The notes under the pieces are model-generated. The model had not been told where the DNA came from. It saw only the letters and a list, made by a program, of their open reading frames with translations, and ran no database searches. This document shows, piece by piece, positions 5,156 to 55,576 of a stretch of 64,000 nt of DNA (position 1 is the first letter of the stretch; each line of letters opens with the position of its first letter). The position numbers and the translations under genes are program-made. Source of the DNA: an uncultured Porphyromonadaceae bacterium (GTDB lineage: Bacteria; Bacteroidota; Bacteroidia; Bacteroidales; Muribaculaceae); the NCBI GenBank assembly GCA_947643165.1, contig CANRVB010000004.1, positions 62,001 through 126,000 of the forward strand, given 5' to 3'.

Positions 5156-5247
5156 GTGTAACTTTGCAGCAGATATCCGTCACACGGATATCTGCGAGCG
5201 TTATTAAAAATGAAACATTAACCCAAACCCATTTTATACAAATTTTT

Positions 5248-5556
5248 ATGGATTCACAAGGCGGCATGCAGCTTATAATGATAGTAGCCCTTATAGTGGT
5301 GTTCTATTTCTTTATGATTCGTCCTCAGCAGAAGCGTCAGAAGGAGATCCGCAAGTTTCGCGAGGCCATCACAAAAGGCGACCGTGTAGTGACAGCCGGA
5401 GGTATACTTGGCAAGGTTGTGTCGGTTGGCGACAAGACCTTCCGCATCGAGATATCCAAGGGCGTTGACATCGAGATAGACAAGAATTCCGTATATCCGT
5501 CGGCTCCAGATGTAGCCTCAGATCCGGCACAGCAGGATAAGATAAAGAAAGACTGA
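5248..5556 (+). CDS. yajC: Preprotein translocase subunit YajC
   Basis: YFFMIRPQQKRQKEIRKFREAITKGDRVVTAGGILGKV; likely start ATG 5248 inside ORF 5164-5556. Confidence 0.95.
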   Translation: MDSQGGMQLIMIVALIVVFYFFMIRPQQKRQKEIRKFREAITKGDRVVTAGGILGKVVSVGDKTFRIEISKGVDIEIDKNSVYPSAPDVASDPAQQDKIKKD

Positions 5557-10293: not shown

Positions 10294-12786
10294 TCACCGG
10301 ATATTCGCGATACTGATTATATCGGCGAATACACCGGCAGCTGTCACCTCGGCTCCGGCACCATATCCTTTGATTACCATCGGATATTCGCTGTAGCGTT
10401 CGGTATTTAGAAGGAATACGTTGTTCGACCCTTCCAAATTGTAAAACGGATGAGATGCATCAACGGTTTGGAGACCTACTGAAACATTTCCGCTGTCGAG
10501 TTTTGCGACAAATCGGAACCGCAATCCTTTCTGCTCGGCTTCAATACGCATTTTCTCGAATTGCGGGTCGTGCTTTTTCAACGACTTCAGGAAGTCGTCC
10601 ACACTTCCGGCAAACAGTTCGGCGGGAATGAAGAGGTGAGTATCGACATCGTCCTGCTCGACAATATATCCAGACTCTCTTGCCAGAATGACAATCTTGC
10701 GGATAACATCGCGACCCGACAGATCCTCGCGGGGATCGGGTTCGCTATAGCCTTCCTTTTTTGCGCAGGCAATAGCTTCGGACATCGGTACGTCTGCTGA
10801 GAGTACATTAAATATGTAGTTTAATGTGCCCGATACAACAGCTTCGATCCGAGTGATACGGTCGCCTGAGTTGATCAGATTGTTTATGGTATTGATAATT
10901 GGGAGACCGGCTCCGACATTTGTCTCAAAAAGGAATTTTACGTCTCTCGCCTTGGCGATATCCTTAAGCTTGCTATAGGTCTCATACTTATCGGAGGCCG
11001 CAATCTTATTAGCTGCCACAACGTTGATATTGTGCGACAGGAGTGTTGGATAAAGCGCCGCTATATCCGGTGATGATGTGCAATCGACAAAGACCGAATT
11101 GTAAAGGTTGAGTCCAAGAATCTCGTTGCATATCAGCATAGGGGATGCCTTGACAGTGGATGCTTCGAGAGTATCGTGCCAGTTGTCAAGAGGAATGCCG
11201 TCGGGATTGAAGATGGCTTTTCGGGAATTGGCGATACCCACCACACGCAACTTCAGCGATTTTGATTTGAGCAGTGTGGACTGCTGGTGGGCTATCTGCT
11301 GAAGTAACCGACACCCGACATTGCCAATTCCCACTATGAAGAGGTTGAGTACGCGAGTGTCAGACAGGAAAAAACTTTCGTGGATTACGTTGAGCGCTTT
11401 GCGTTCGTTGGCCAGGTCGATGACAAATGATATATTTGTCTCAGACGCTCCTTGAGCGCAAGCTTTCACGTTTATGCCGTTTCGGCCAAGAGTGTTGAAC
11501 AGGCGACCGGCCACACCGGCAGCCTTCTTCATGTTTTCGCCTACTATGGCGACAGTAGCAAGGTTGCGTTCTACCGTGATAGGATTGATCTCGCCAGTCT
11601 GCAGATCGGTCATAAATTCTTGTTCGAGCGCTTTCACGGCTCTCTCGGCATCGGCGTTTCTTACGGCAAATGAAGTTGTGTTCTCACTTGATGCCTGAGA
11701 TACGAGAAAGACGCTGACACCGGCTCGCGACAGGGCGTTGAATATACGGGCGTTCACGCCGATGATGCCTACCATGCCAAGTCCGGAGAACGTGATAAGG
11801 CATGTGTCGTTGATGGATGATATGCCTTTGATAGCTTTTGCAACATCGGTATTTCCAGTACCTGGATCGGTATCGGTGTGACGGTCGGATATGAGTGTGC
11901 CGGGAGCTCCAGGATTGAATGTATTCTTGATAAGGATGGGGATATTCTTATGGAATACGGGATAAATAGTTGGTGGATATATCACCTTGGCTCCAAAGTT
12001 GCATAGCTCCATCGCCTCGATAAATGACAGCTTGTCGATAACGTAGGTCCCCGGTACCATTCTGGGATCGGCGGTGAGGAAACCGTCGACATCGGTCCAT
12101 ATCTCCAGTTGTTCGACGGAAGGTAGGGCTGCGGCAAGAATGGCTGCGGTATAATCGCTACCTCCACGTCCGAGGTTTGTCACGTCACCTTCGGCATTGG
12201 AAGATATAAACCCAGGTACGAGTATGACTTTTGCCGTTTCGAGCATCCGGGGCGTGATGATCTTAGCCATTTCGAGATGCGTCGCATCGGCATCAAGGAC
12301 ATGTTTGCCAAATTGGTTTACAGTCTTGATAAACTGCCTGGAGTCGAGCAACACAGTGTCTGGGCCGAGTATCTTGCTGATGATTGTCGAGGACAGACGT
12401 TCACCGTAGCTGACGATTATGTCTAATGATCTTGGCGAGAGGTCGTGGATAAGGCTTACACCTTTATATATGTTTGACAGTTCATCGAGCATCCTGTCGA
12501 TGGTCTCGGTGACTTGCGACTTGCTTTCATCGGGTACTATACCATTGATGACATCATGATGGCGGTGTATAATTTCGGCCAGTGATACGGCATACGCTTC
12601 ATCGCCCTGGGCAGCCATACGTGCGGTCGCTATCAGCCGGTCGGTGATTCCGCCCAACGCTGATACGACAACAATGACCGGAGATGTCCCGGCTTCTGCC
12701 TCAGTATAGTCGTGGACTATCTGCCTAACATTTTGAAGGCTTTTGACAGTTCCTACCGAGGTGCCTCCGAATTTCAGAACTTTCAT
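10294..12786 (-). CDS. thrA: Bifunctional aspartokinase / homoserine dehydrogenase
   Basis: 830 aa; MKVLKFGGTSVGTVKSLQNV (aspartokinase), ACT region, LFIVGIGNVGCRLLQQI and ETNVGAGLPIINTI (homoserine dehydrogenase). Confidence 0.97.
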   Translation of the reverse strand: MKVLKFGGTSVGTVKSLQNVRQIVHDYTEAEAGTSPVIVVVSALGGITDRLIATARMAAQGDEAYAVSLAEIIHRHHDVINGIVPDESKSQVTETIDRMLDELSNIYKGVSLIHDLSPRSLDIIVSYGERLSSTIISKILGPDTVLLDSRQFIKTVNQFGKHVLDADATHLEMAKIITPRMLETAKVILVPGFISSNAEGDVTNLGRGGSDYTAAILAAALPSVEQLEIWTDVDGFLTADPRMVPGTYVIDKLSFIEAMELCNFGAKVIYPPTIYPVFHKNIPILIKNTFNPGAPGTLISDRHTDTDPGTGNTDVAKAIKGISSINDTCLITFSGLGMVGIIGVNARIFNALSRAGVSVFLVSQASSENTTSFAVRNADAERAVKALEQEFMTDLQTGEINPITVERNLATVAIVGENMKKAAGVAGRLFNTLGRNGINVKACAQGASETNISFVIDLANERKALNVIHESFFLSDTRVLNLFIVGIGNVGCRLLQQIAHQQSTLLKSKSLKLRVVGIANSRKAIFNPDGIPLDNWHDTLEASTVKASPMLICNEILGLNLYNSVFVDCTSSPDIAALYPTLLSHNINVVAANKIAASDKYETYSKLKDIAKARDVKFLFETNVGAGLPIINTINNLINSGDRITRIEAVVSGTLNYIFNVLSADVPMSEAIACAKKEGYSEPDPREDLSGRDVIRKIVILARESGYIVEQDDVDTHLFIPAELFAGSVDDFLKSLKKHDPQFEKMRIEAEQKGLRFRFVAKLDSGNVSVGLQTVDASHPFYNLEGSNNVFLLNTERYSEYPMVIKGYGAGAEVTAAGVFADIISIANIR

Positions 12787-12838: not shown

Positions 12839-12874
12839 TGTATCGTATCCTGAAAAGGGTGAGGATACGATACA
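12839..12874 (-). repeat. 12-bp perfect inverted repeat (12-nt loop) in the thrA promoter/5' leader
   Basis: TGTATCGTATCC-tgaaaagggtga-GGATACGATACA, immediately downstream (minus strand) of the -7-like box TAAATTTG. Confidence 0.85.
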
Positions 12875-51149: not shown

Positions 51150-52787
51150 ATGGAACAGACCCACTCCACCGATATATCACCTCGCCGCATTGACCTGCGT
51201 GTTGAGCCTCACATAGCATACGACCATGCAGCCCTGACCCGCTACATATCGCATCAGCTCAAGCTCGACACAGGTCGAATAGGCGATATCATTATTGTAA
51301 GGCGATCAATAGATGCACGCCAACGGCGCATAATGATCAATCTGGCCGTTGACGTCTACATCGACTCGCCAGCACCATCAATCGAACAGCGCATAGCGTC
51401 CCGTGCAGCGGTCGAACCTCTCCGCCCGCTTCCCCCTGATGCAAGACAGGCAATAGTTGTCGGAGCCGGACCGGCCGGACTTTTTGCCGCACGCCGTCTC
51501 ATGGAGCTCGGTATTAAGCCAATTATAATAGAGAGGGGTCGCGATGTTGACACCCGTCGCCTTAATGTCGCCCAAATATCACGGACCCAACAGGTAGATC
51601 CCGAATCAAACTACTGTTTTGGTGAGGGCGGAGCCGGAACATTCTCCGACGGTAAGCTTTACACCCGTTCACATAAACGCGGACCGGTCGACAAGGTCCT
51701 GGGAACATTTGTGATTCATGGAGCAGATCCTTCTATCATGGTCGATGCCCATCCCCATATCGGCACGGACAAACTGCCATACATAGTTCGTAGTCTGCGC
51801 CGCGAGATAGAGGACATGGGTGGCGAAGTTCATTTTGCAACACGTGTCGACAATATCATAATCAGCAATGAGGGTGAGACACTTCGCGCTACCGGAGTCG
51901 AGACCCGGTCCACTCTGCCAGGATCCGATGAGTGTCGCAGGTTCGACGGACCCGTTATCCTCGCTACGGGCCACTCGGCCAGAGATGTCTACTCCATGTT
52001 GGCACATAACGGCGTTTCCATCGAAGCCAAAGGTATTGCTGTAGGTGTGCGCCTCGAGCATCCCCAACATCTCATTGACTCCATATTCTACCATAATCCA
52101 CAGGGACGCGGCAAATGGCTTCCACCAGCCGAATACAGCTTGCTTACCCGGGTAGATGGTCGGGCCGTCTACTCCTTCTGCATGTGTCCCGGAGGTGTGA
52201 TAGTTCCTGCCGCCACCTCGCCGGGACAGATAGTGGTAAACGGCATGAGTTCTTCATCTCGCGGATCCCGACTGGCCAACAGTGGATTGGTTGTCGAGGT
52301 GCTTCCCGATGACATCCCGGGCAATGACCCGCTCCGCATGATGGACTATCAGCAGTCTATCGAGGCATCCTTCTCGGCCGATGCTGATGGTACAATGAAT
52401 ACAGCAGCCCAGCGCATGACCGATTTTGTGGCCGGACGACTAAGCCGCGATCTGCCGCCCGTGAGCTACCCGCCTGGAGTACACTCCTCCAGGGTCGACA
52501 AACTTCTACCTGCCGAAATATCACGCCGTCTCCAGGTCGGATTCAGCGACTTCGGCCGACGTTACCGCGGATTCCTGAGCGAGGATGCCACTGTGGTTGG
52601 TTGCGAGACACGTACATCCTCACCTGTGCGCGTAAGCCGTGATCCGGCCAGTCTCATGTCTGTCAATATTGCCGGACTTTATCCCTGCGGCGAGGGCGCC
52701 GGATATGCCGGAGGGATAGTCAGCGCCGCCATCGATGGCATAAGGTGTGCCGAATCACTCAGTCGCGCCATTGATCAAAATTTATAA
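51150..52787 (+). CDS. FAD-dependent dehydrogenase/oxidoreductase (uncharacterised)
   Basis: 545 aa; VVGAGPAGLFAARRLMELGIKPIIIERG, GEGGAGTFSDGKLYTR, C-terminal GLYPCGEGAGYAGGIVSAAIDGIRCAESL. Confidence 0.9.
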   Translation: MEQTHSTDISPRRIDLRVEPHIAYDHAALTRYISHQLKLDTGRIGDIIIVRRSIDARQRRIMINLAVDVYIDSPAPSIEQRIASRAAVEPLRPLPPDARQAIVVGAGPAGLFAARRLMELGIKPIIIERGRDVDTRRLNVAQISRTQQVDPESNYCFGEGGAGTFSDGKLYTRSHKRGPVDKVLGTFVIHGADPSIMVDAHPHIGTDKLPYIVRSLRREIEDMGGEVHFATRVDNIIISNEGETLRATGVETRSTLPGSDECRRFDGPVILATGHSARDVYSMLAHNGVSIEAKGIAVGVRLEHPQHLIDSIFYHNPQGRGKWLPPAEYSLLTRVDGRAVYSFCMCPGGVIVPAATSPGQIVVNGMSSSSRGSRLANSGLVVEVLPDDIPGNDPLRMMDYQQSIEASFSADADGTMNTAAQRMTDFVAGRLSRDLPPVSYPPGVHSSRVDKLLPAEISRRLQVGFSDFGRRYRGFLSEDATVVGCETRTSSPVRVSRDPASLMSVNIAGLYPCGEGAGYAGGIVSAAIDGIRCAESLSRAIDQNL

Positions 52788-52858: not shown

Positions 52859-52911
52859 AGTAATTTTGCAATCGTTTTGGTCTGCTTGGCCAAAACGATT
52901 GCAAAATTACT
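52859..52911. repeat. 22-bp perfect inverted repeat (9-nt spacer) over the valS promoter/5' leader
   Basis: AGTAATTTTGCAATCGTTTTGG-tctgcttgg-CCAAAACGATTGCAAAATTACT; each arm contains the -7-like TAATTTTG. Confidence 0.95.
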
Positions 52912-52942
52912 TTTGTTTAACCCAATCAAACCATATATATCC

Positions 52943-55576
52943 GTGAGCCAACTTGCCACCAAATACTCGCCAGCCGAGGTAGAAGACAAATGGTATGCCT
53001 ACTGGATGGAACACCGCCTGTTTCATAGCGAGCCAGATGGGCGTGAGCCGTATACTATTGTAATTCCCCCTCCAAACGTGACGGGTGTGCTACACATGGG
53101 CCATATGCTCAACAATACCATTCAGGATATACTGATACGCCGTGCCCGAATGGAGGGCAAAAACGCGTTGTGGGTTCCCGGAACCGACCATGCCGCGATA
53201 GCTACGGAAGCCAAGGTCGTTGCGAAGCTCGCCAACGACGGTATAAAGAAGTCGGATCTGTCGCGTGAGGAGTTTCTGAACCACGCATGGGACTGGACTC
53301 ACCGTTATGGCGGCATAATACTTGAGCAGCTGAAGAAGCTGGGTGCTTCGTGCGACTGGGAGCGCACGGCATTCACGATGGACGAGACGCGCTCGAAGAG
53401 CGTGATACGCGTGTTTGTTGACTTATACCGCAAGGGACTGATATATAGGGGCAAGCGCATGGTAAGCTGGGACCCTAAGGCCCGCACGGCTTTGTCGGAC
53501 ATCGAGGTGGTATACCGCGAGGAGCATAGCAAGCTCTATCATCTGCGCTACAAGATATCCGGCGAGGACGGGTATGCGATAGTGGCTACCACACGTCCTG
53601 AGACTATCATGGGCGATACGGCAATGTGTATCAATCCTAATGATCCGAAGAACGCTCATCTGCGCGGCAAGCGTGTGATAGTTCCTCTGGTCGGCCGTGA
53701 GATACCCGTGATAGAGGATGAGTATGTAGACATGGAGTTTGGCACAGGTTGCCTCAAGGTGACTCCGGCTCACGATGTGAATGACTATATGCTCGGCCAG
53801 AAGCACAATCTTGAGTCGATCGACATATTCAATGATGATGCGACAGTGAGCGAGGCTGCTGGAATGTATGTCGGCATGGACCGCTTTGACGTGCGCAAGC
53901 AGATAGCGGCCGATCTGGAGCAGGCAGGACTGATAGAGCGTATCGAGGAATATGACAACAAGGTGGGATATTCGGAGCGCAATCCGGAGACTGCTGTCGA
54001 ACCACGTCTGTCTGACCAATGGTTCCTTGATATGCAGGGCCTTGCCAAACCGGCTCTCGCCTCGGTAGAGGAGGATATAATACGCTTTGTTCCTGACAAA
54101 TTCAAGACCACATACCGGCGTTGGATGACGGATATACGCGACTGGTGTATATCGCGTCAGCTGTGGTGGGGTCACCGCATACCCGCATGGTATCTGCCTG
54201 ACGGATCGTTTGTAGTAGGAGAAACCGAAGAGGAGGCTCTGCAGCTTGCGCGCGAGAAGGATCCTTCGGTCAATATGAGCGATCTGCATCAGGATGAGGA
54301 TTGCTTTGACACCTGGTTCTCGTCATGGCTTTGGCCGCTCACGCTTTTTGATGGCATTCTCAACCCCGGCAATAAGGAGATAAGCTATTATTATCCGACA
54401 TCCACTCTGGTGACAGGTCCCGATATCATCTTCTTCTGGGTAGCCAGAATGATAATGGCGGGATATGAATTCAACGGCAAGCAGCCTTTCGACAATGTTT
54501 ACTTCACAGGTATCGTGCGTGATGAGATAGGCCGCAAGATGTCGAAGCAGCTTGGCAATTCGCCGGATCCGCTGGATCTGATAGCGACATACGGCGCTGA
54601 CGGTGTGCGTGTGGGCATAATGTTATGCGCTCCTGCCGGAAACGATATACTTTTCGACAAGAAACTGTGTGAGACCGGCCGCAATTTCTGTAACAAGATA
54701 TGGAACGCATTCCGTCTTGTGAAAGGATGGGAAGTGTCTGACGAGGCCGCCCAGCCCGATACAGCCAAGGCTGCCATAGCATGGTTTGACCAGAAGCTAT
54801 CGGCCGCTGTCACTGAGGTGAACGATTTGCTGGCGAAATTCCGCATCAGCGAGGCATTGAGAGAACTATACCGTCTGTTCTGGGATGAATTCTCTTCGTG
54901 GTATCTCGAGATGGTGAAACCGGCCTATGGCTCTCCTATCGACAAGCATACGATGGAGGCTACGCTGGGATTCTTTGACAGCCTGCTGCGTCTGCTCCAT
55001 CCCTTCATGCCGTTTATAACTGAAGAGCTCTGGCAGAACATATCGGAGCGCAGGGAGGGCGAGTCGATCATGTATGCGGCTTCTCCTCTGGCTTCGGAAC
55101 CGACAGCCGAATCGCAGGCTATCCTTAATGCCGTTGAGCACGCCAAAGAGGTGGTTAACGGCGTGAGAAACATACGTGCCGAAAAGAACATAGCGCCTAA
55201 GGTAGCACTGCAGCTCAATGTCATAGGCACATGGGATAAGGAGCAGGATTGCATCATAATGAAGCTCGCCAACATAGAGGCAGTGAACCACGATGCGGCC
55301 CACGATCCTACGGCCGCCACATTTATGGTAGGCACAACCGAGGTGAACATTCCTCTGGCTGATACAGTGGACAAGGATGCTGAAATAGCCCGTCTGACCA
55401 AGGAACTGGAATACATGGAGGGATTCCGCACTTCGGTGATGAAGAAGCTGGGCAACGAGCGCTTTGTGTCGAAAGCCCCCGAACAGGTGGTAGAGGCTGA
55501 GCGTCGCAAGCTTGCGGATGCAGAGACCAAGATCGCGGCTCTCACTTCATCGATCAGTGCTCTTAAATCCTGCTGA
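52943..55576 (+). CDS. valS: Valine--tRNA ligase
   Basis: [64 protein letters not shown]. Start GTG 52943 ([18 protein letters not shown]) preferred over TTG 52877. Confidence 0.97.

Follow-up and report, generated by a model that had tools for sequence, protein, structure and literature searches.

A lineage-specific perfect inverted repeat at the predicted valS promoter of a Muribaculaceae bacterium, possibly an inverted duplication with a terminator-like form

Introduction

Promoters of the sigma-ABfr type in Bacteroidetes combine the -7 motif TAnnTTTG (PMC7366714) with TTTG near -33. The predicted valS promoter considered here fits this description in its -7 box and T-rich spacer; it differs in that TTTG was not found at spacing 19-20 on the + strand, and in that the box lies within a 22-bp inverted repeat. 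Intrinsic (Rho-independent) terminators offer a second comparison. The valS repeat shares with them a long perfect hairpin, a T-rich tail and a place between two co-directional genes, but it has an A/T-rich lower stem, lies 71 nt from the upstream stop codon and carries a predicted promoter in its 5' arm.

Template switching during replication yields perfect reverse-complement hairpin copies (PMC8794818). As in the palindromes described there, the valS repeat contains a perfect reverse-complement arm beside its presumed template that is absent in relatives, although here the copying is inferred rather than directly observed and its polarity is taken from a parallel case. Finally, AlaRS of Escherichia coli is autoregulated through a palindrome that flanks the start site of its own gene, according to the work cited in PMC10485164. 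At both loci a palindrome surrounds the start site of a gene for an aminoacyl-tRNA synthetase; the valS repeat differs in lacking conservation, in belonging to another synthetase and in its much longer arms.

Results

The window, a 64,000-nt stretch from the genome of an uncultured Muribaculaceae bacterium, contains at 52859-52911 a perfect 22-bp inverted repeat with a 9-nt spacer, exactly as a first-pass annotation had described it. The two arms (52859-52880 and 52890-52911; 22 nt each, 9 nt apart) are 100% complementary, and the repeat falls within the 155-nt gap between an FAD oxidoreductase gene and valS, both on the + strand, 71 nt beyond the stop codon of the former. The features of the region are as follows.

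51150-52787, + strand: FAD-dependent oxidoreductase gene (Pfam PF21688, E 7e-64), upstream of and co-directional with valS
52859-52880, + strand: left arm, AGTAATTTTGCAATCGTTTTGG, bearing the predicted valS promoter, which the promoter matrix ranks at the 92nd percentile of 336 sites
52861-52868, + strand: predicted valS -7 box, TAATTTTG, preceded by a T-rich stretch typical of such promoters
52874-52896, + strand: predicted 5' end of valS mRNA, a 9-bp stem-loop GUUUUGGUC-UGCUU-GGCCAAAAC, with the start placed from the box
52890-52911, + strand: right arm, the left arm's reverse complement and probably the derived copy, judged from the polarity of a parallel case in genome G385 and from the lack of a counterpart upstream of valS in relatives
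52902-52909, - strand: -7 box in the right arm (25th percentile; TTTG at the off-optimum spacing of 17), a weak or inactive candidate promoter
52911-52918, + strand: U-rich tail, made up of the final stem base (T at 52911) and the TTTGTTT after it; terminator-like toward read-through from the upstream gene
52943-55576, + strand: valS, valyl-tRNA synthetase, GTG start (Pfam PF00133, E 2e-129, and PF10458)

The start codon of valS, chosen by aligning its first residues with those of relatives, is most likely the GTG at 52943. The FAD oxidoreductase gene has different downstream neighbours in relatives of the genus, and its synteny with valS was not found in the genus members examined.

As RNA, the repeat was predicted to form 24 pairs (one of them G-U) closed by a UGCUU loop, with a folding energy of -35.4 kcal/mol and a z score of -9.6; none of 200 dinucleotide shuffles folded as low. 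By arithmetic, 64 kb of sequence should contain about 1e-7 perfect repeats of this kind by chance; the valS repeat far exceeds this expectation, and chance is ruled out as its source. Hairpin statistics were drawn from a 464-kb sample of the host genome, where the valS repeat is the longest perfect intergenic hairpin; hairpins of 20-21 bp also occur in the sample, mostly at gene ends. Assembly error is an unlikely source because the repeat sits mid-contig. Further copies of the arm, proposed as a check by the first-pass annotation, were sought in the 2.64-Mb assembly using a 20-mer with up to three mismatches, and no second copy was found. A multi-copy element or MITE was rejected on this ground, and family matches to the region are mainly short promoter-like stretches. 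Rfam returned only far sub-threshold matches for the repeat region, mostly to eukaryotic microRNA models, as any hairpin would give; a riboswitch, T-box or other Rfam leader was rejected, with no family match and no structure kept in relatives.

The left arm is predicted to be an ordinary sigma-ABfr-type valS promoter with its start region. TAnnTTTG occurs at -110 to -25 of the valS start codon in 93 of 106 distinct Bacteroidales upstream sequences (shuffled mean 4.2), and this promoter box is the sole part of the locus that is conserved in relatives. The matrix behind the percentile scores was built from 336 promoter-like sites, with the repeat's own sites left out. In this set TTTG stands most often 19 nt (19 cases) or 20 nt (26 cases) away; most of the remaining spacings account for 1-7 cases each, and a smaller peak lies at 12. 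TTTG at the usual spacing was present in just 45 of the 336 sites, and it was reported not to be found in Flavobacterium johnsoniae (PMC7366714); for both reasons, the -33 TTTG was not treated as required. The first-pass annotation had placed a -7 box on both strands. Its + strand box stood up well, whereas the minus-strand box, at the 25th percentile, proved weak. A second + strand -7 box, TACTTTTG at 52908-52915, was rejected as the valS promoter, with a score at percentile 0.

The repeat was not found in any relative examined, a result that tells against any conserved function, as the first-pass annotation had itself foreseen. Moreover, the mean folding z score of valS leaders was -0.24 across the genus set (22 loci besides this one) and -0.01 in 48 other Bacteroidales, and therefore there is no conserved valS leader structure. 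The valS promoter of a related species (L005, genome G030) carries an unrelated 13-bp repeat whose right arm contains the -7 box, and locus L034 carries an 18-bp repeat formed by two back-to-back -7 boxes. The valS repeat is a lineage-specific palindromised promoter.

The predicted transcripts differ in how much of the repeat they contain. Read-through RNA from upstream has both arms and folds into the full hairpin. In contrast, RNA begun about 6 nt past the -7 box, inside the left arm, was predicted to form a 9-bp stem-loop from its first base, followed by GAUUGCAAAAUUAC with no U-run, and to leave the start region open; this agrees with the earlier suggestion that valS mRNA begins with a stem-loop. 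Since read-through RNA has both arms and the initiated RNA only the short stem, the same DNA could terminate one and spare the other.

The earlier statement that the repeat has no U-run did not hold. Its stem is followed by TTTGTTTA, with T at six of eight positions, which equals the best hairpin tails in the 464-kb sample, where hairpins with arms of at least 10 bp have 1-6 T in those eight positions. A consensus scan likewise classed the repeat as terminator-like. The lower stem, AGTAATTTT, is A/T-rich, and the arm G+C of 0.32 lies below that of nearly all sampled hairpins. We therefore call the hairpin terminator-like rather than a terminator, its lower stem lacking high G+C. A terminator function for FAD-gene RNA is plausible.

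Hairpins at predicted 5' ends were also considered as a general class in this genome and rejected, because structure is no stronger in predicted start regions (mean z -0.41) than in the DNA immediately before them (-0.58); the corresponding value in other genomes is 0.03. Within the 464-kb sample, the 64-kb window alone has perfect arms of at least 9 bp directly behind a -7 box. At 12839-12874 on the minus strand, a 13-bp perfect hairpin follows straight after the -7 box TAAATTTGC; a thrA-like gene (10294-12786), which encodes a fused aspartokinase/homoserine dehydrogenase, lies 52 nt downstream of it. At 5159-5195 on the plus strand, a 12-bp perfect hairpin follows straight after the -7 box TAACTTTGC; a NusB-like gene lies on one side of it and a YajC-like coding region (PF02699, E 2e-29, frame 5164-5556) on the other.

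Parallel cases were found in the family, where a pattern of face-to-face -7 box pairs is present in 72 of 397 genomes. Within the genus, such pairs are not commoner than same-direction pairs, whose count is inflated by the -33 element. Most face-to-face pairs have no long further pairing, although the total arms reach 22, 22 and 17 bp in G385, G244 and G144, respectively. By arithmetic, about 0.005 of about 80 pairs would reach at least seven extra inward paired positions by chance, and G385, G244, G144 and valS all reach this number. In G385, upstream of a purF-like gene, and in G244, before another + strand ORF, the -7 box lies in the left arm and the ORF begins soon after the right arm, as at valS. 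The palindromes of G144 and G319 were set aside, since each sits between two convergent genes and has the appearance of a simple terminator. The U-tails of the G385 and G244 promoter palindromes are weak or absent, which indicates that insulation is not a common property.

The G385 case gives a polarity. Its left arm matches the promoter of the G415 ortholog at 20 of 21 nt, and several of these matches lie outside the general promoter motif. Against G415, the left arm scores 19 and the reverse-complemented right arm 18 (shuffle maximum 11 each), whereas the right arm in its own orientation scores 13 (shuffle maximum 12). This pattern gives the order of events, with an old promoter side from which the opposite arm was copied. 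At valS itself, the conserved promoter is the one guide to polarity, and it suggests the same direction.

In the genus of G385, unrelated hairpins lie just after the -7 box upstream of the purF-like gene (MGGIMGVAAHDEC) in four loci (L274, L279, L286 and L287) of the set L274-L303. Several leaders of this set have AGGTAAAA ahead of the start codon, and these leaders may be regulatory. No Rfam match was obtained for the purF-like leaders of L274 or L287.

At the DNA level, a search of the G383 genus recovered conserved face-to-face -7 boxes upstream of a CYTH-domain gene (15 loci analysed, L304-L317 and L322; an example is L260, 1577-1619). The interiors between the boxes vary in sequence while the hairpin is usually kept, with stems such as GAATCC/GGATTC, GAAACG/CGTTTC, CGGGA/TCCCG and others. 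The 14 interiors long enough to score gave a mean z of -2.30, with a t of -5.25 that is uncorrected for relatedness; a MAFFT alignment did not align the stems. This suggests that, at a gene other than valS, a hairpin between face-to-face boxes can be kept by selection, and the CYTH promoter is a possible conserved start-site structure. The minus-strand reading at this promoter, GCAAAATTAATG, may also give the start codon of a divergent gene.

Discussion

We tentatively favour, at a little short of even, the view that the promoter and start region was duplicated in inverted orientation and that the resulting repeat now serves as a terminator-like barrier to read-through RNA. The left arm would be the ordinary sigma-ABfr-type promoter and start region of valS, and the right arm a lineage-specific inverted copy, made most likely in one step by short-range template switching in replication, leaving the promoter nested within the left arm of a terminator-shaped hairpin. 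Read-through RNA of the FAD gene would contain both arms, form the 24-pair hairpin followed by UUUGUUUA and tend to terminate, thereby insulating valS. RNA begun at the valS promoter would form only the top ~9 pairs, with no adjoining U-run, and would escape termination with a short 5' stem-loop. The block would be limited to read-through RNA because only that RNA has both arms. Copying event, transcription start and termination at valS are all inferred. Against this reading count the 71 nt from the upstream stop codon, farther than for many terminator-like hairpins here, and the A/T-rich lower stem (arm G+C 0.32), unlike that of most sampled terminator-like hairpins.

The main rival shares the template-switch origin and holds that the inverted copy left the promoter undisturbed; the hairpin may then have no selected function. 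In favour of such a neutral palindrome, the repeat is lineage-specific, has perfect arms and is present once in the genome, valS leaders show no structural conservation, and the G385 case has the same polarity. This reading sits less easily with a terminator-like tail and with perfect arms placed in a short gap between genes where promoter and leader also lie, and we consider it rather unlikely. Lower still is our estimate for selection of the short stem-loop as a stabiliser at the 5' end of valS mRNA. In E. coli, a 5' stem-loop protects ompA mRNA from 5'-dependent decay, and the predicted valS transcript, with its 9-bp stem at the first base and open start region, would suit a guard of this kind, as would the two other perfect hairpins straight after a -7 box in the window. 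However, the predicted 5' ends are not generally structured (see the mean z values above), and a stabiliser would need neither the lower 13 pairs nor a -7 box in the stem.

An operator for a dimeric regulator, as proposed in the first-pass annotation, would have the AlaRS palindrome cited in PMC10485164 as its precedent at the start site of a synthetase gene, for instance through putative binding of ValRS in autoregulation. We think this very improbable: the repeat is absent in all relatives examined though ValRS is conserved, the genome has no other copy, and 22 perfect base pairs far exceed what an operator needs. Equally little probability is given to a further earlier proposal, a divergent promoter pair in which transcription from the right arm would yield an antisense RNA to the FAD oxidoreductase gene. 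The consensus TAATTTTGC is present on the minus strand, but the box scores at the 25th percentile, its spacer is A-rich rather than T-rich, TTTG stands at spacing 17 where 19-20 is enriched, and there is no divergent gene.

If the nested arrangement of our favoured reading works, one short sequence would both start a housekeeping gene and block read-through from its neighbour. If true, it would be a bacterial case of a copying error that made a regulatory hairpin in one step, with the ancestral promoter half still recognisable. The parts are already known; their nesting is unusual. A broader proposal, which we regard as doubtful, is that in Muribaculaceae promoters have repeatedly become palindromes about the start site. 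Face-to-face -7 boxes would then flank a hairpin, and at some loci selection would preserve its structure while its sequence changes. The valS, purF-like (G385) and G244 ORF promoters would be young, perfect cases and the CYTH promoter an old, maintained one, and the hairpin would distinguish internally begun from read-through transcripts.

Two further arrangements of face-to-face boxes were observed. Locus L264 (G184) has at 1495-1616 two copies of the palindrome TCGCAAAAGTGCCATTTATGGCATTTTT that are nearly identical and fall within ~120 nt; face-to-face -7 boxes enclose the second. In L272 (G268, 1527-1556), face-to-face -7 boxes and a short hairpin precede a gene whose N-terminal sequence, the sole basis of its name, is alaS-like; this is a second aminoacyl-tRNA synthetase gene with such boxes.
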